This document shows, piece by piece, positions 5,794 to 45,356 of a DNA stretch of 64,000 nt. The stretch is from an uncultured Agathobaculum sp. (GTDB lineage: Bacteria; Bacillota; Clostridia; Oscillospirales; Butyricicoccaceae): the NCBI RefSeq assembly GCF_944380985.1, contig NZ_CALWJJ010000002.1, positions 186,001 to 250,000 of the forward strand, in the 5' to 3' direction. The notes under the pieces are model-generated. The model saw only the letters and a program-made list of their open reading frames with translations, made no database searches and was not told the DNA's origin. The position numbers and the translations under genes were made by a program. Each line of letters starts with the position of its first letter. Within the stretch, counting starts at the first letter, position 1.

Positions 5794-6702
5794 TTAAATC
5801 TCGCCGCATAGCATGGCGGCGATTGCGTCCTCGATTGTACGCGCACCGAGCGAAATAGCGCCCATGGCTTCAGCTCGCCGGCCGACTGCATACCGGTGCA
5901 GGTCGACGCCGCCTGCGGGGCACTGTGTGGTAAGGTAGATCCGCGTGCCGCTTTCGATCAGCATGCGCACGGCAGGTTCCAGCCGGATGGGAATGCCGCC
6001 CGCACCATAAGCTGCCAGAATCACCCGTGGGCAGCCGCACAGCCGTTCCAAAAAGGCGGGCGGCAGGTCGGGCGTCAGCCGGATAACGGGCACGCCCATT
6101 TCCTCCGGTTCGATAAACACCGGCACGCCTGCGGGCCGCGGACGGCTGTGCCAGCAGATTCGTCCATCCGCGTCGATCTCTCCTGCGGGCGGCGCGCTGA
6201 CCGAATAGAAAGCGTCGATAGCGGTCGAGTGCCGCTTGGAAACGCACCAACCCAGCATGATGCTGCCGTGTAGCACGGCAAGCACCCCGGCGGCGTCCGC
6301 CGACGCGACGCGGAACGCATCGAGCAGGTTGCGCGGCGCGTCCGAGCCGGGTGCGCCCATAGGCAGCATCGAGCCTGTCAGCACGACCGGCCTGTCAAAA
6401 TTCCGCAGCACATGGTGCAGCAGCGCGGCGGTATAGGCGAGCGTATCCGTGCCGTGCGCGATGACAAAGCCGTCATAGCGCGCGCGGCTGTTCCATACTG
6501 TCCGGGCGATCGCCATTCGATCAGCAAGGGTGAGGTCGGTCGAGTCGAGGCGTATTAAATCGCACACGTTGGCCGCGCAGATATCGCCAAGCGCGGGCAG
6601 CAGACTGTGCAGCTCCTCGCCCGCCAGCATGGGGCAAAGGCCATTTTCGGTCTCTCGGCAGGCGATCGTGCCGCCGGTCGCGATCATTAAAATTGTTTTC
6701 AC
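5794..6702 (-). CDS. ansA: L-asparaginase
   Basis: This enzyme hydrolyses asparagine to aspartate and ammonia. The 302-residue protein carries the two active-site signatures: TGGTIACRE with nucleophile Thr12, and AHGTDTLAY with Thr85 and Asp86. LDSTD (52-56) is the substrate-binding segment. There is no signal peptide, so it is probably the cytoplasmic type. The start is GTG at 6702 with GGGG about 7 nt upstream. It follows the alcohol dehydrogenase gene after 35 bp on the same strand, so they probably share a transcript, although no metabolic link is obvious. Confidence 0.93.
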   Translation of the reverse strand: MKTILMIATGGTIACRETENGLCPMLAGEELHSLLPALGDICAANVCDLIRLDSTDLTLADRMAIARTVWNSRARYDGFVIAHGTDTLAYTAALLHHVLRNFDRPVVLTGSMLPMGAPGSDAPRNLLDAFRVASADAAGVLAVLHGSIMLGWCVSKRHSTAIDAFYSVSAPPAGEIDADGRICWHSRPRPAGVPVFIEPEEMGVPVIRLTPDLPPAFLERLCGCPRVILAAYGAGGIPIRLEPAVRMLIESGTRIYLTTQCPAGGVDLHRYAVGRRAEAMGAISLGARTIEDAIAAMLCGEI

Positions 6703-6737: not shown

Positions 6738-7895
6738 TTACCGATAGCTTTCCTCCAGAATACCGATTACATCCTCACGCGAGAGCGGATGCGGGTCGAC
6801 GCGGAACAGGCCGCCCATCGTGTCGGCCGCATTATCCGCGATTTTGCCAAAGTCCGCAGGCGTGACGCCGTAGTCCGACAAGCGCAGATCGTGCACGTTG
6901 CAGCGCTTTTGCAGATCGGTAAGCGCGTCAATAAAGTCCGCGGGCTTGTCCGCATCTTTGCGGCCGAGCGCGCGGGCGATGGCGATCAGACGGTCGCCCG
7001 CCGGCTTGGTAAACCGGCTCCAGTATGCTTTGGAAATTATGATAAGGCCCGCACCGTGCGGCAGCGAGGGATAGTACGCGCTTAGCGCATGCTCGATCGC
7101 GTGCTCGCCCGTGCAGCTTGACAGTGTTTCGACAAAGCCTGCCAATGTGTTGGCAAGCGCAACGTCGGCGCGTGCATCCGCGTTGCCACCCTCGCGCACC
7201 GCGGTAGCGAGCGAGCGGCCGATCAGCTCGATTGCCTTGAGCGAAAACATTTCGCTGATGGGTGTAGCGGACTTGGCAAGATAGCCCTCGGCCGCGTGGA
7301 AGAAGGCGTCAAAGCCCTGGTAGGCGGTCAGGTGCGGCGGCACGGACATCATAAAGTCCGGGTCGACAATCGAGATAGCCGGAAAGCACTTTTCACCGCC
7401 GCCGCCGATCTTTTCCTCGCCGTTGGTGATAACGGTGAAGGGATCGGCCTCGGTGCCTGTGCCTGCGGTGGTCGGGATGGCGATAACCGGCAGGCCGGCC
7501 TTTGCGATGCGCTTGCCTCCACCCGAGCCGCCGTGGATGTAATCCCACCAGTCGCCCTCGTTTGTCGCCATGATGGCGACCGCCTTTGCTGTATCGATCG
7601 ACGAGCCGCCGCCAAGGCCGACAACGAATGAAATACCCTCTGCACGACACAGCGCGGCGCACTCGCGCACGCCCTCGATGGTCGGGTTGGGCTGCACCTT
7701 ATCATATACAATGGTATCGTGCCCGGCCTCGGCCAGCGCATTTTGCACCTTGGCAACATAGCCGAGGCGCGTGGTTGACGTGCCGCCCGTAACGATCAGC
7801 CCGCGGCCCTCGGGCAGACGCGCCCGCGCAAGCTTTTGCACCGAGCCGTTGCCAAAATACAGGCGCGTGGGCATGTAAAAGTTGAAATTGTCCAT
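6738..7895 (-). CDS. Iron-containing alcohol dehydrogenase (butanol dehydrogenase type)
   Basis: A 385-residue group III alcohol dehydrogenase that would reduce aldehydes to alcohols (or the reverse) with NAD(P)H. The nucleotide site is VVGLGGGSSIDTAKAVA. Metal-ligand segments are GFDAFFHAAEGYLA and EHALSAYYPSLPHGAGL, which hold the expected Asp and His residues. The start at 7895 (MDNFNFYMPTRLYFGNGS) follows a GGAAGGAAG ribosome site; the longer upstream reading is leader. The leader contains a GGCCC...GGGCC hairpin (about 7921-7938) near the ribosome site. The exact substrate cannot be read from the sequence. Confidence 0.92.
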   Translation of the reverse strand: MDNFNFYMPTRLYFGNGSVQKLARARLPEGRGLIVTGGTSTTRLGYVAKVQNALAEAGHDTIVYDKVQPNPTIEGVRECAALCRAEGISFVVGLGGGSSIDTAKAVAIMATNEGDWWDYIHGGSGGGKRIAKAGLPVIAIPTTAGTGTEADPFTVITNGEEKIGGGGEKCFPAISIVDPDFMMSVPPHLTAYQGFDAFFHAAEGYLAKSATPISEMFSLKAIELIGRSLATAVREGGNADARADVALANTLAGFVETLSSCTGEHAIEHALSAYYPSLPHGAGLIIISKAYWSRFTKPAGDRLIAIARALGRKDADKPADFIDALTDLQKRCNVHDLRLSDYGVTPADFGKIADNAADTMGGLFRVDPHPLSREDVIGILEESYR

Positions 7896-7997
7896 ACTGA
7901 CTTCCTTCCTGGAATGAAAGAGGCCCACAAGCGGGCCCCGCAGATATCTTAAATCCATTGCGTATTGTTGGCGGGATAAAATGCGCCTAACAATATT

Positions 7998-8026
7998 ATT
8001 ATAGCAAATTCTTGCAATATTGGAAA
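7998..8026 (-). promoter_or_regulatory. Promoter of the alcohol dehydrogenase-asparaginase unit
   Basis: On the minus strand TTTCCA, a 17-bp spacer ending TGC, then TATAAT (an extended -10). It fires away from the large-RNA promoter at 8095. Confidence 0.65.
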
Positions 8027-8094
8027 TAGGAAAAGCGATAAAATACATGCGTATATTTTATATAATATAACCATGAAAAAACGAGAAATAACGT

Positions 8095-8123
8095 TTGACA
8101 TTGTGCAATTTTGATGATATTAT
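8095..8123 (+). promoter_or_regulatory. Consensus promoter of the large non-coding RNA
   Basis: TTGACA, a 17-bp spacer, then TATTAT. The -35 is perfect. A start at about 8130 is expected, roughly 20 nt ahead of the closing helix of the RNA. Confidence 0.8.
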
Positions 8124-8129
8124 TATGAC

Positions 8130-9104
8130 ACAGAAAAGAAAAGGGCGAACACCAGAAGGAAGTAAGGCAGGGGCCTTACGAAGACGGCGCAACCCTTTCC
8201 GATTCTGAAAGGGGTGGCAGAAAGCCAAATGACACCGCAGAAAGGGGTGAGTCCAATGGTAACAGAAGAGACATCCTATTCGTTCGCGGGACTCGCCGCG
8301 GCGCTGTAACCGAAACGATCAAGGTGATAGCTGTAAAATGTGCGAGTTCCACATCCAAAAAACGAACCGCCTGAAAAGTGCGATCGGCTTGTAAAGATCG
8401 TAAAGGAACGGTACCTTGGAGGAAGTTATCCTCACGAATATTCATCCGTCAAACAGTATCGATACATACAAGCGGATCGAGGCAGCAGGAAAGTAAGGTT
8501 CCAGATACAGTAAGAACCCTGAAGCAATGCGCCGGCGAATGAAAACAGTATCCGAGCGATGCCTGCCAAACGCCATAAATCGTGCGCACCCAATAGGCCG
8601 ATGGGCATACTGATGAGTATGGTGACGCAGAGGCGGACCAGAGCACAGGACAGAGATCATATCAAAACCTGCTGAAAATGGTTCGGGCGCGGCAGAACGG
8701 AATCAAAGCGATCACCCGCCGAGAAGTGACGCATTGAAATTGACATAGAGTTCCGAAACGCAGTAAAGACAACCAACCGGAAGTGTACGAACAAACATTG
8801 GCCGGGTGGGTTCCGTGAACATAGGATGGTCAAAGATTGGCTTGCAAGAAAAGCCGCGATTTATTCATAATTCGATCGTCATATGGGGTAGGGGACGATC
8901 ATTATCCACTAGAAACAATACAGATTAGAGCGCGCGCTGCGCAATCGCATGGAGCAAGCGGTATTGCAATGAAAGCGCAGAAGGCGCAGCGGCTCTATAA
9001 TAAATCTATAATAAAAAATACAGCGGCCTTGTTGCTGCTGAGAGAAGAGCGATTATGGAAATCTGGATGTAAAAGGCCTCGTCGTATGACGGGGCCTTTA
9101 TTTT
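8130..9104 (+). ncRNA. Large structured non-coding RNA, about 975 nt, family not identified
   Basis: A whole kilobase without a credible protein gene is bounded by a consensus promoter and a 12-bp-stem terminator. The ends close on each other: 8149-8156 pairs with 9062-9070 (8 bp, one bulged A), directly before the terminator. Inside I can draw many local helices: 8162-8168/8173-8179 (7 bp), 8190-8199/8207-8216 (9 bp, one mismatch), 8246-8254/8289-8297 (9 bp), 8419-8423/8429-8433, 8606-8611/8616-8621, 8874-8880/8894-8900 (7 bp), and 8927-8931 plus 8936-8942 with 8984-8990 and 8992-8996. Linkers are purine-rich (GAAA, GTAA), as in ornate RNAs such as OLE, ROOL and GOLLD. The size is nearest those classes, but I cannot show homology. 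OLE neighbours (isoprenoid genes, OapA) are absent, and there is no group II intron domain V, RNase P or tmRNA signature. Confidence 0.75.
9072..9104 (+). terminator. Terminator of the large RNA
   Basis: A 12-bp stem (AAAGGCCTCGTC with GACGGGGCCTTT, one G-T) closes a GTAT tetraloop and is followed by ATTTT. The closing helix of the RNA ends only 2 nt before it. Confidence 0.9.
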
Positions 9105-9150
9105 GTATCAGGTAAAAAGCTATGCGTTTCCCGCCAGGAGAAACGGTGTG

Positions 9151-9849
9151 TTATTTTGCATCCGTCTTTTCGCCGCGCTGCGCATCGATCATATCGTAGA
9201 GCGCACTAAGCGCGTCAGACAGCGTGCCGACCGCGTCGATCAGGCCGAGCGTGACCGCCTGCTTGCCTGAAATCACCGTGCCGACGTCTGCGGTGAGCTG
9301 GCCGGTCTCGCGCATGAGCTGCTGCAGCCGCGCAGCGGAGATAGAGGAGTGAGCAGTGATAAAGTCCACAATGCGCTCCTGGATCTTAGCGAGGTACTCA
9401 AACGCCTGCGGCACAGCAATGATTGTGCCGTTCATGCGCACAGGATGGATGGTCATGGCGGCAGAGGAGGCGATAAAGCTTTTTTTGGCGGCTACGGCAA
9501 GCGGCACGCCAATCGAATGCCCGCCGCCCAGCACAAGCGACACGGACGGCTTGCGCATGCCCGCAATCAGCTCAGCGATGGCAAGGCCGGCTTCCACGTC
9601 TCCGCCTACGGTATTGAGCAGTACCAGCAGGCCGTCGATCTCCTCTGCCTGCTCAACTGCGGTGATTTGCGGGATCAGATGTTCGTATTTGGTGGTTTTA
9701 TTCTGTGCGGGCAGCTCCATATGCCCCTCGATCTGCCCGACGATCGTAATACAGTGCACGGTGCCGCGCGCGGTTTTGGAAGTGATCGAGCCGGTCTCGG
9801 CGATGGTGTTTTCCTCGGGCGCCCGGATCGACATGGTTTCATCCTGCAT
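9151..9849 (-). CDS. tepA: ClpP-like serine protease, TepA/YmfB family
   Basis: A 232-residue cytoplasmic protein of the ClpP/crotonase fold. Catalytic-type residues are visible: Ser112 in [12 protein letters not shown] and His135 in TIHPVRM, with [20 protein letters not shown] giving the oxyanion-strand region. Bacillus TepA is linked to protein export and spore protein processing, but its substrates are not well defined. The start at 9849 has AAGGGAG 8 nt upstream. It stands alone, leftward, between the large RNA and the DnaA-box cluster. Confidence 0.85.
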
Positions 9850-45279: not shown

Positions 45280-45356
45280 GGCGGTATAGCTTAGTTGGCT
45301 AGAGCGTTCGGTTCATACCCGAAAGGTCATTGGTTCAAGTCCAATTACCGCTACCA
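45280..45356 (+). tRNA. tRNA-Met (CAU), elongator type
   Basis: Cloverleaf with acceptor GGCGGTA/TACCGCT, D-arm AGCTTAGTTGGCTAGAGC, anticodon arm TTCGG-TTCATAC-CCGAA, TTCAAGT T-loop and encoded CCA. G1 pairs with T72, so this is not an initiator tRNA (which has a C1-A72 mismatch). Lysidine-type tRNA-Ile2 is a lesser alternative. Confidence 0.93.

Follow-up and report, generated by a model that had tools for sequence, protein, structure and literature searches.

A large structured RNA with a conserved translation-initiation module in Agathobaculum and other Butyricicoccaceae

What is made from nearly a kilobase of bacterial DNA that lies between a promoter and a terminator and holds no long reading frame kept among its relatives? 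The locus belongs to an uncultured Agathobaculum sp. and sits in a stretch of 64,000 nucleotides, which was analysed as a whole and is called the window below. Very few known bacterial RNA families besides rRNA reach such a size, and most of them are functionally obscure. The reading I favour, at a probability of about one half, is a large structured RNA outside Rfam that has been inherited vertically within the Butyricicoccaceae, would act in trans, and would have its fold gated by ribosomes.

A transcription unit with a covarying fold

The unit and its neighbours upstream are laid out as follows.

5794-6702, minus strand: L-asparaginase gene, syntenic neighbour beyond the alcohol dehydrogenase gene, named from its ORF sequence
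6738-7895, minus strand: iron-type alcohol dehydrogenase (ADH) gene, divergent syntenic neighbour, named from its ORF sequence
8095-8123, plus strand: promoter TTGACA-17-TATTAT, read directly from the sequence; TTGAC and TATNAT are kept genus-wide and in other genera
8130-9104, plus strand: the RNA, a predicted transcript from the 3' side of the promoter to the T-run of the terminator
8830-9010, plus strand: lineage-variable insert, whose length varies widely between species
9040-9071, plus strand: conserved 3' element 5' of the terminator, consensus TATGGAnATnTGGAAGTAAAA
9072-9104, plus strand: intrinsic terminator, a 12-bp stem and T-run, from sequence reading and relatives

A preliminary description of the window had proposed a structured RNA running from this promoter to this terminator, and that proposal holds with two corrections, to the closing helix and to an ORF that it missed. 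The -35 box (TTGACA, 8095-8100), the 17-nt spacer and the -10 box (TATTAT, 8118-8123) are all exact in the sequence and kept in relatives. The terminator stem pairs 9072-9083 with 9088-9099, including one G-U pair, and is followed by ATTTT; it too is retained in relatives, one of which (L019) carries the compensatory change from GGCC/GGCC to GCCC/GGGC. The region is presumably transcribed as one unit, and a converging ClpP-like protease gene (named from its ORF sequence) flanks it on the 3' side. Across Agathobaculum, conservation extends past the two boxes into the promoter spacer (8101-8117, TTGTGCAATNTTGATGA), which suggests a candidate regulator site.

No long ORF is conserved in any of the six frames: the window has twenty frames of at least 35 codons here; at most 11 of 21 relatives keep any one of them intact, and for most the number is 0-4. 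Two candidate frames were considered and rejected. ORF B (from 8338, MCEFHIQKTNRLKSAIGL and a stop) looked coding in the window, and its start codon reads AAG in L004, L007, L012 and L013; ORF D (MGILMSM..., 8601) meets TGA stops in L009, L011, L014 and L015 while helix P9 of the RNA persists. A decayed protein-coding gene or mobile element would fit the length of about 1 kb and the many short ORFs on both strands, but the frames are not conserved, the sequence covaries as RNA, the phage and plasmid collections searched hold no match to the locus, and its synteny is conserved. I give this explanation almost no weight.

The fold was assessed on an alignment (A1) of 22 Agathobaculum sequences, whose consensus has 124 pairs, 37 of them with at least one double-sided compensatory change. 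All-pairs covariation analysis (GT statistic with APC, stringent) has almost no power with 22 sequences and returned one pair at E=0.1. A whole-structure test against tree-preserving nulls, meant to be free of bias, was used instead, with 40 alignments simulated by redistributing the substitutions of each column over the tree and then folded identically. The consensus energy was -134.9, against -72.7 +/- 5.4 in the nulls (best null -89.5); the 37 pairs with double-sided changes compare with 6.9 +/- 2.9 (maximum 14), and the 110 cells with such changes compare with 16.6 +/- 7.8 (maximum 41). Real internal helices are thus present, far beyond chance, and the comparative data strongly support a structured RNA. 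Covariation beyond phylogeny and the lack of a conserved long ORF, two marks of a structured RNA, occur together here. A short frame described below, ORF A, gave no signal in a codon test. The consensus contains these helices:

8143-8254, plus strand: P1, GGGC/CACC (8143-8146, 8150-8153) with GGUG/GUCC (8246-8249, 8251-8254), from the RNAalifold consensus
8162-8179, plus strand: P1a, hairpin GUAAGGC/GCCUUAC, with several compensatory changes (UA to CG in 9 sequences, AU to GC in 8)
8273-8302, plus strand: 5' strand of P2, within ORF A, pairing with 8801-8827
8371-8488, plus strand: P5 domain, hairpins P5a and P5b, with variation at pair 278/373 (GC:14 AU:6 UA:1) and others
8526-8735, plus strand: P7-P9 core domain, with variation at P9 pair 573/617 (CG:11 UA:7) and pair 571/621 (AU:9 GC:7)
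8586-8625, plus strand: P8, two GAUG-loop hairpins (GCC-GAUG-GGC and AUACU-GAUG-AGUAU) inside a closing stem
8801-8827, plus strand: 3' strand of P2, pairing with 8273-8302

The sequence of P8 (GCCGAUGGGCAUACUGAUGAGUAU) is invariant in 22 of 22 aligned Agathobaculum sequences, and a pair of its closing stem reads UA:11 CG:10. Compensatory forms occur in other genera (CACAC/GUGUG, CAUGC/GCAUG, and C-G for the loop-closing U-A). P1 would cover the Shine-Dalgarno (SD) site; most of its pairs never vary, and because they are nearly invariant P1 gains no support from covariation. The preliminary description had closed the whole RNA by pairing 8149-8156 with 9062-9070. The window sequence allows such a helix (ACACCAGA / UCUGGAUGU, with one bulge), and some relatives keep it as CCAGA/UCUGG or CCAAA/UUUGG, but it is mispaired in L007, L013 and L015, and it competes with the CACC/GGUG pairing of 8150-8153 with 8246-8249. 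Changes on both sides at several pairs instead support P2 as the predicted main closing helix.

An initiation module and a short frame within the fold

Three further features lie near the 5' end.

8240-8258, plus strand: initiation module GAAAGGGGTGAGTCC-A-ATG, an extended Shine-Dalgarno match with start codon
8256-8309, plus strand: ORF A, 17 codons, MVTEETSYSFAGLAAAL and a stop, open and gapless in the 22 aligned Agathobaculum sequences
8292-8297, plus strand: CUCGCC element within ORF A, part of P2 here, conserved across genera

The earlier statement that the RNA has no credible ORF is right for long frames but passed over the 17 codons of ORF A and their very strong SD. The predicted duplex of GAAAGGGGTGAGTCC with a standard 16S 3' tail has an energy of -17.2 kcal/mol, stronger than for all 68 long ORFs of the window; the values in other lineages are -9.9 to -16.5 kcal/mol. 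Every one of the 22 aligned Agathobaculum sequences retains the SD site and start codon, which recur in other genera. No gap interrupts the 54 aligned positions between ATG and stop in any of the 22; in 21 of them the stop (TAA or TGA) falls at codon 18, L020 being three codons longer. Within Agathobaculum 25 of 66 changes are synonymous, against 23.4 expected. Because this is no excess and codons offer no evidence, the case for translation is built on SD, AUG and stop.

The frame has 16-18 codons in most lineages and often begins M-V-x-E. Its peptide is not conserved between genera, and a GGCUCGC-like stretch that is conserved across them falls in different reading frames by lineage; therefore the conserved thing is the initiation site together with an RNA element, not the peptide, which is probably not itself the product. 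A dual-function RNA resembling RNAIII or SgrS, with the 17-aa peptide as its functional product, would account for the steady length, the M-V-x-E start and the retention of SD, AUG and stop by 22 of 22 sequences, but not for peptides that differ between genera, an element in shifting frames and the missing synonymous excess, and I consider it distinctly improbable.

What the frame does share between lineages is a predicted partner downstream. ORF A codons 6-16 are the 5' strand of P2 in Agathobaculum (g1). In Butyricicoccus (g5/g37) the predicted partner of the final ORF codons (GUGCCC) is GGGCAC close to the 3' end, and G085 shows compensatory changes. In genus g9 (g9a) ORF positions +19 to +51 are predicted to form about 26 pairs with +169 to +201; in one genus of family f26 the prediction is 13 pairs between +29 to +42 and +155 to +167, there with no double-sided change. 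The predictions outside g1 each draw on 5-6 sequences, and with them the ORF is predicted to pair over a long range downstream in four lineages. At the 5' end, CUCGCC (8292-8297) is complementary to GGUGAG of the SD site and the start codon lies within a small CC-RAU-GG hairpin; as alternatives, these modelled pairings could constitute a switch.

The ribosome-gated reading would work as follows. Without initiation, P2 would close the core and the double-GAUG P8 domain would be presented. A ribosome that bound the SD site and traversed ORF A would have to melt P2 and hold the core open. In this way the RNA would act as a reporter or buffer of free ribosomes or of translation capacity. This layout would couple the fold of the RNA directly to ribosome entry, which makes for an unusually clear first experiment on a large orphan RNA.

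A structural or scaffold RNA in the style of OLE, ROOL and GOLLD, whose fold would be its function and whose small ORF would be incidental or would only tune RNA stability, is a possibility that I hold to be real but doubtful. It fits the strong structure, which spans about 700 nt, the near-invariant primary sequence of P8, which resembles a binding site, and the lack of codon-level selection on ORF A. It does not explain why the SD-AUG module is among the most conserved parts across genera whose RNAs are otherwise unalignable, why the module is multiplied in genus g10 and in f26, or why its match to 16S rRNA is extended, for which a pure scaffold has no evident need. An intricate fold that matches no catalogued family, with a very strong SD before a frame whose bases build one side of P2, suggests a new RNA class that ribosomes may switch between shapes.

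Inheritance, setting and known RNAs

A DNA similarity search found homologues in 23 of 24 other Agathobaculum genomes, with synteny largely conserved. Typically, a block of about 700-770 nt (67-88% identity) is followed by a variable insert and then by a conserved 3' block with the terminator. A motif scan of named genomes added Butyricicoccus-type species and Intestinibacillus as carriers. The RNA measures about 345-565 nt in g5, g9 and g37, about 900 nt in Intestinibacillus and about 890 nt in g10; since Butyricicoccus RNAs as short as about 350 nt have the same core, the size of about 975 nt given in the preliminary description is no fixed property of the family. A GAUG-hairpin pattern was also tried: outside the Butyricicoccaceae most of its matches in named genomes, when inspected by eye, look like coding sequence (PMGTPMS-like), both matches in viral contigs are without the module, and all of these were set aside. 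Separately, the draft genome G012 holds two different copies of the RNA, on contigs C3 and C21 (L002, L026), that are 88% and 83% identical to the window, from either a duplication or a mixed bin.

In most Butyricicoccaceae loci examined the RNA is divergent from the asparaginase gene and, where present, ADH. Asparaginase adjoins the RNA in most g1 loci, in g5, g9, part of g10, g37 and Intestinibacillus, and ADH neighbours it in g1, g5, g9b and Intestinibacillus; some g10 loci have other neighbours, and some examined stretches are too short to show the asparaginase gene. As a prospective check of synteny, a search guided by asparaginase orthologues alone, in genomes without a prior match, arrived at the promoter and module in two genomes that earlier scans had passed over, G084 and G064. 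Such a constant neighbourhood might point to a cis regulator of the divergent asparaginase and ADH genes. This I regard as very unlikely, for transcription of the RNA runs away from these genes and stops at a terminator of its own, g9a and g37 lack ADH next to the RNA, and its probable relatives in other families adjoin a DUF1292 gene. The RNA, which by the preferred reading would act in trans, keeps a fixed locus across a gut-bacterial family and apparently has relatives elsewhere in the order.

Does it belong to any RNA family already described? Rfam 15 contains models for OLE, ROOL, GOLLD, HEARO, raiA and group I/II introns. At gathering score the 64-kb window yielded three tRNAs and no other family, and cmscan of positions 7800-9400 (1.6 kb) with permissive filters and E up to 10 gave no credible Rfam 15 match; no covariance model of the families just listed matched in 7800-9400 to E=10, and neither the window nor seven related loci scored above gathering with any of them. 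Sub-threshold matches to RsmY (E=0.0044), STnc340 and Phe_leader lie at the terminator end, far under their gathering scores, and were discarded. The hallmarks of tmRNA are a tRNA-like domain and a tag ORF without an SD; no tmRNA was found at the locus by ARAGORN or by cmscan to E=10, and ORF A in contrast has a strong SD and AUG. By covariance model the same genome has RNase P RNA on contig C6 (275.9 bits) and 6S RNA on contig C16 (69.6 bits), with no match to either at the locus, and the RNA is therefore not a disguised copy of either. Identity with OLE, ROOL, GOLLD, HEARO, tmRNA, RNase P or 6S is not supported. As an observation on the genome as a whole (G000, 97% complete), no tmRNA exceeded the Rfam cut-off and only weak tRNA-like matches were seen; its tmRNA may be divergent or belong to the part that the assembly lacks.

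The preliminary description had left two options, a divergent member of a known ornate class or a new class. The first is not supported; the second is, by the missing Rfam match, the strong covariation and the chromosomal, syntenic setting. The initiation module, the real closing helix and the core shared with shorter RNAs had escaped that description. Its remark that neither phage nor tRNA array is near agrees with the missing phage match and with the tRNA scan, in which the nearest tRNAs in the window are at 45280, about 36 kb from the RNA.

Comparison with individual systems points the same way. Like OLE, the Agathobaculum RNA is large, chromosomal, structured and stand-alone, without a large ORF, and the link of OLE to the ribosomal protein RpsU (PMC12286853) parallels its ribosome theme. 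Unlike OLE, which is marked by neighbouring genes for OLE-associated proteins (OapA), it has as its immediate neighbours genes that by their ORF sequences encode an asparaginase, an alcohol dehydrogenase and a ClpP-like protease; it also has an SD-AUG module and a closing helix within an ORF, besides lacking an Rfam match. Large, ornate RNAs whose role in bacteria is unknown also make up the ROOL and GOLLD classes; many of the GOLLD RNAs exceed 800 nt, and both classes occur in phages or prophages, often near tRNA islands (PMC12286853), whereas the present RNA is chromosomal, syntenic with asparaginase and ADH, without phage or plasmid match and far from the window's tRNAs. The raiA-motif RNA (ModT) is described as a conserved structured RNA in Bacillota in PMC11706538; the Agathobaculum RNA differs in its neighbourhood and again in having no Rfam match. 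RNAIII and SgrS are regulatory RNAs with a small ORF inside a folded transcript. VcdRP, too, is a regulatory RNA with a small ORF inside its transcript (PMC8672173). Like this dual-function group, the present RNA is structured and holds a small ORF, complete with start, SD and stop, but here the initiation site is conserved and the peptide is not, and in several lineages the ORF itself supplies one side of the closing helix. A literature search on structured RNAs of Agathobaculum, Butyricicoccus or Oscillospirales found nothing relevant in the papers covered; the main text of a large human-microbiome screen for candidate structured RNAs (PMC8040213) names neither genus, and its supplementary tables may hold an unnamed entry.

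Repeated modules and probable relatives in the order

In several species of g10 the RNA carries the module GAAAGNNGGUGAGUCC[A/G]AUGG three or four times in tandem, with ORFs that include MGRSFC-stop and MGSDKLE-stop. Among lineages other than Agathobaculum, multi-module RNAs come with tiny ORFs, MGRSFC-stop, MG-stop and AUG-UAA among them; MA-stop and MGR-stop are further examples of tiny ORFs. Across 11 RNAs there are 35 strong SD-AUG modules against 8.6 +/- 2.7 in dinucleotide shuffles, and 25 are left after removal of one search-seed module per non-window RNA; the window RNA by itself has 4 modules, no significant enrichment given that its shuffles average 1.35 and reach 6. Two g10 loci (L184, L187) hold RNAs with repeated SD-AUG modules and tiny ORFs (MG-stop, MGSETTQTI-stop and MGQEAVTVGFEAENCI-stop), that of L184 upstream of an RNase R-like gene, and these are probably paralogues of the element.

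The module pattern also led to loci in f23 and f26, two further families that GTDB places in the same order, the Oscillospirales. Their RNAs are about 0.55-1.0 kb long, with the same module, tiny ORFs including AUG-UAA, and a terminator. Most also have a 3' ACAAYUGAAUA element that is found in Butyricicoccus as well and lies outside the search pattern. A DUF1292 gene is divergent from the RNA in 5 of 7 f23/f26 loci tested (L202, L209, L224, L225, L227). In one f26 genus 24 of 25 genomes searched show similarity, some over short segments only. Judged by module, locus and the 3' ACAAYTGAATA element rather than by full alignment, the f23/f26 RNAs are probable relatives of the Agathobaculum RNA.

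6S RNA mimics a promoter for RNA polymerase, and by analogy the RNAs could be ribosome decoys, mRNA mimics whose strong SD-AUG sites, each followed by a tiny ORF, would capture 30S subunits or idle ribosomes. The extended SD, the minimal ORFs, the up to four modules in g10 and the enrichment over shuffles would suit a decoy, which is nonetheless unlikely, given that the RNAs of Agathobaculum and Butyricicoccus have one good conserved module only and that their conserved mass is mostly folded core. The ribosome-gated reading extends, more tentatively, to an order-wide class with one to several SD-AUG modules and throw-away ORFs, in which ribosome loading would switch a long-range helix containing the ORF and the RNA would serve as free-ribosome sensor or decoy. 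If this were true, these ribosome-responsive RNAs would be a counterpart of 6S RNA for the translation machinery. The likeness to 6S is limited to the notion of imitating a substrate on which the expression machinery acts. In L202 and L209 a 6S gene lies beyond or next to the DUF1292 gene, about 1 kb from the RNA; the Agathobaculum genome has its own 6S on another contig.

Several matches of the module pattern precede ordinary genes and were discarded: genes for an HD-domain protein (L174, L178, L218), an Asp23-like protein (L220), lipoproteins or secreted proteins (L204-L206, L208) and a small membrane protein (L215). In family f19 (L204-L206, L216, L217) the same extended SD precedes a small ORF (MGSTETEITEQATFCGCMPVGH or similar) situated directly upstream of a lipoprotein-like gene, an arrangement present in two copies in some genomes. 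Finally, G316, G439, G442 and G444 each contain many dispersed copies of an element about 60 bp long (query 678-741) that lies just beyond the f26 RNA.
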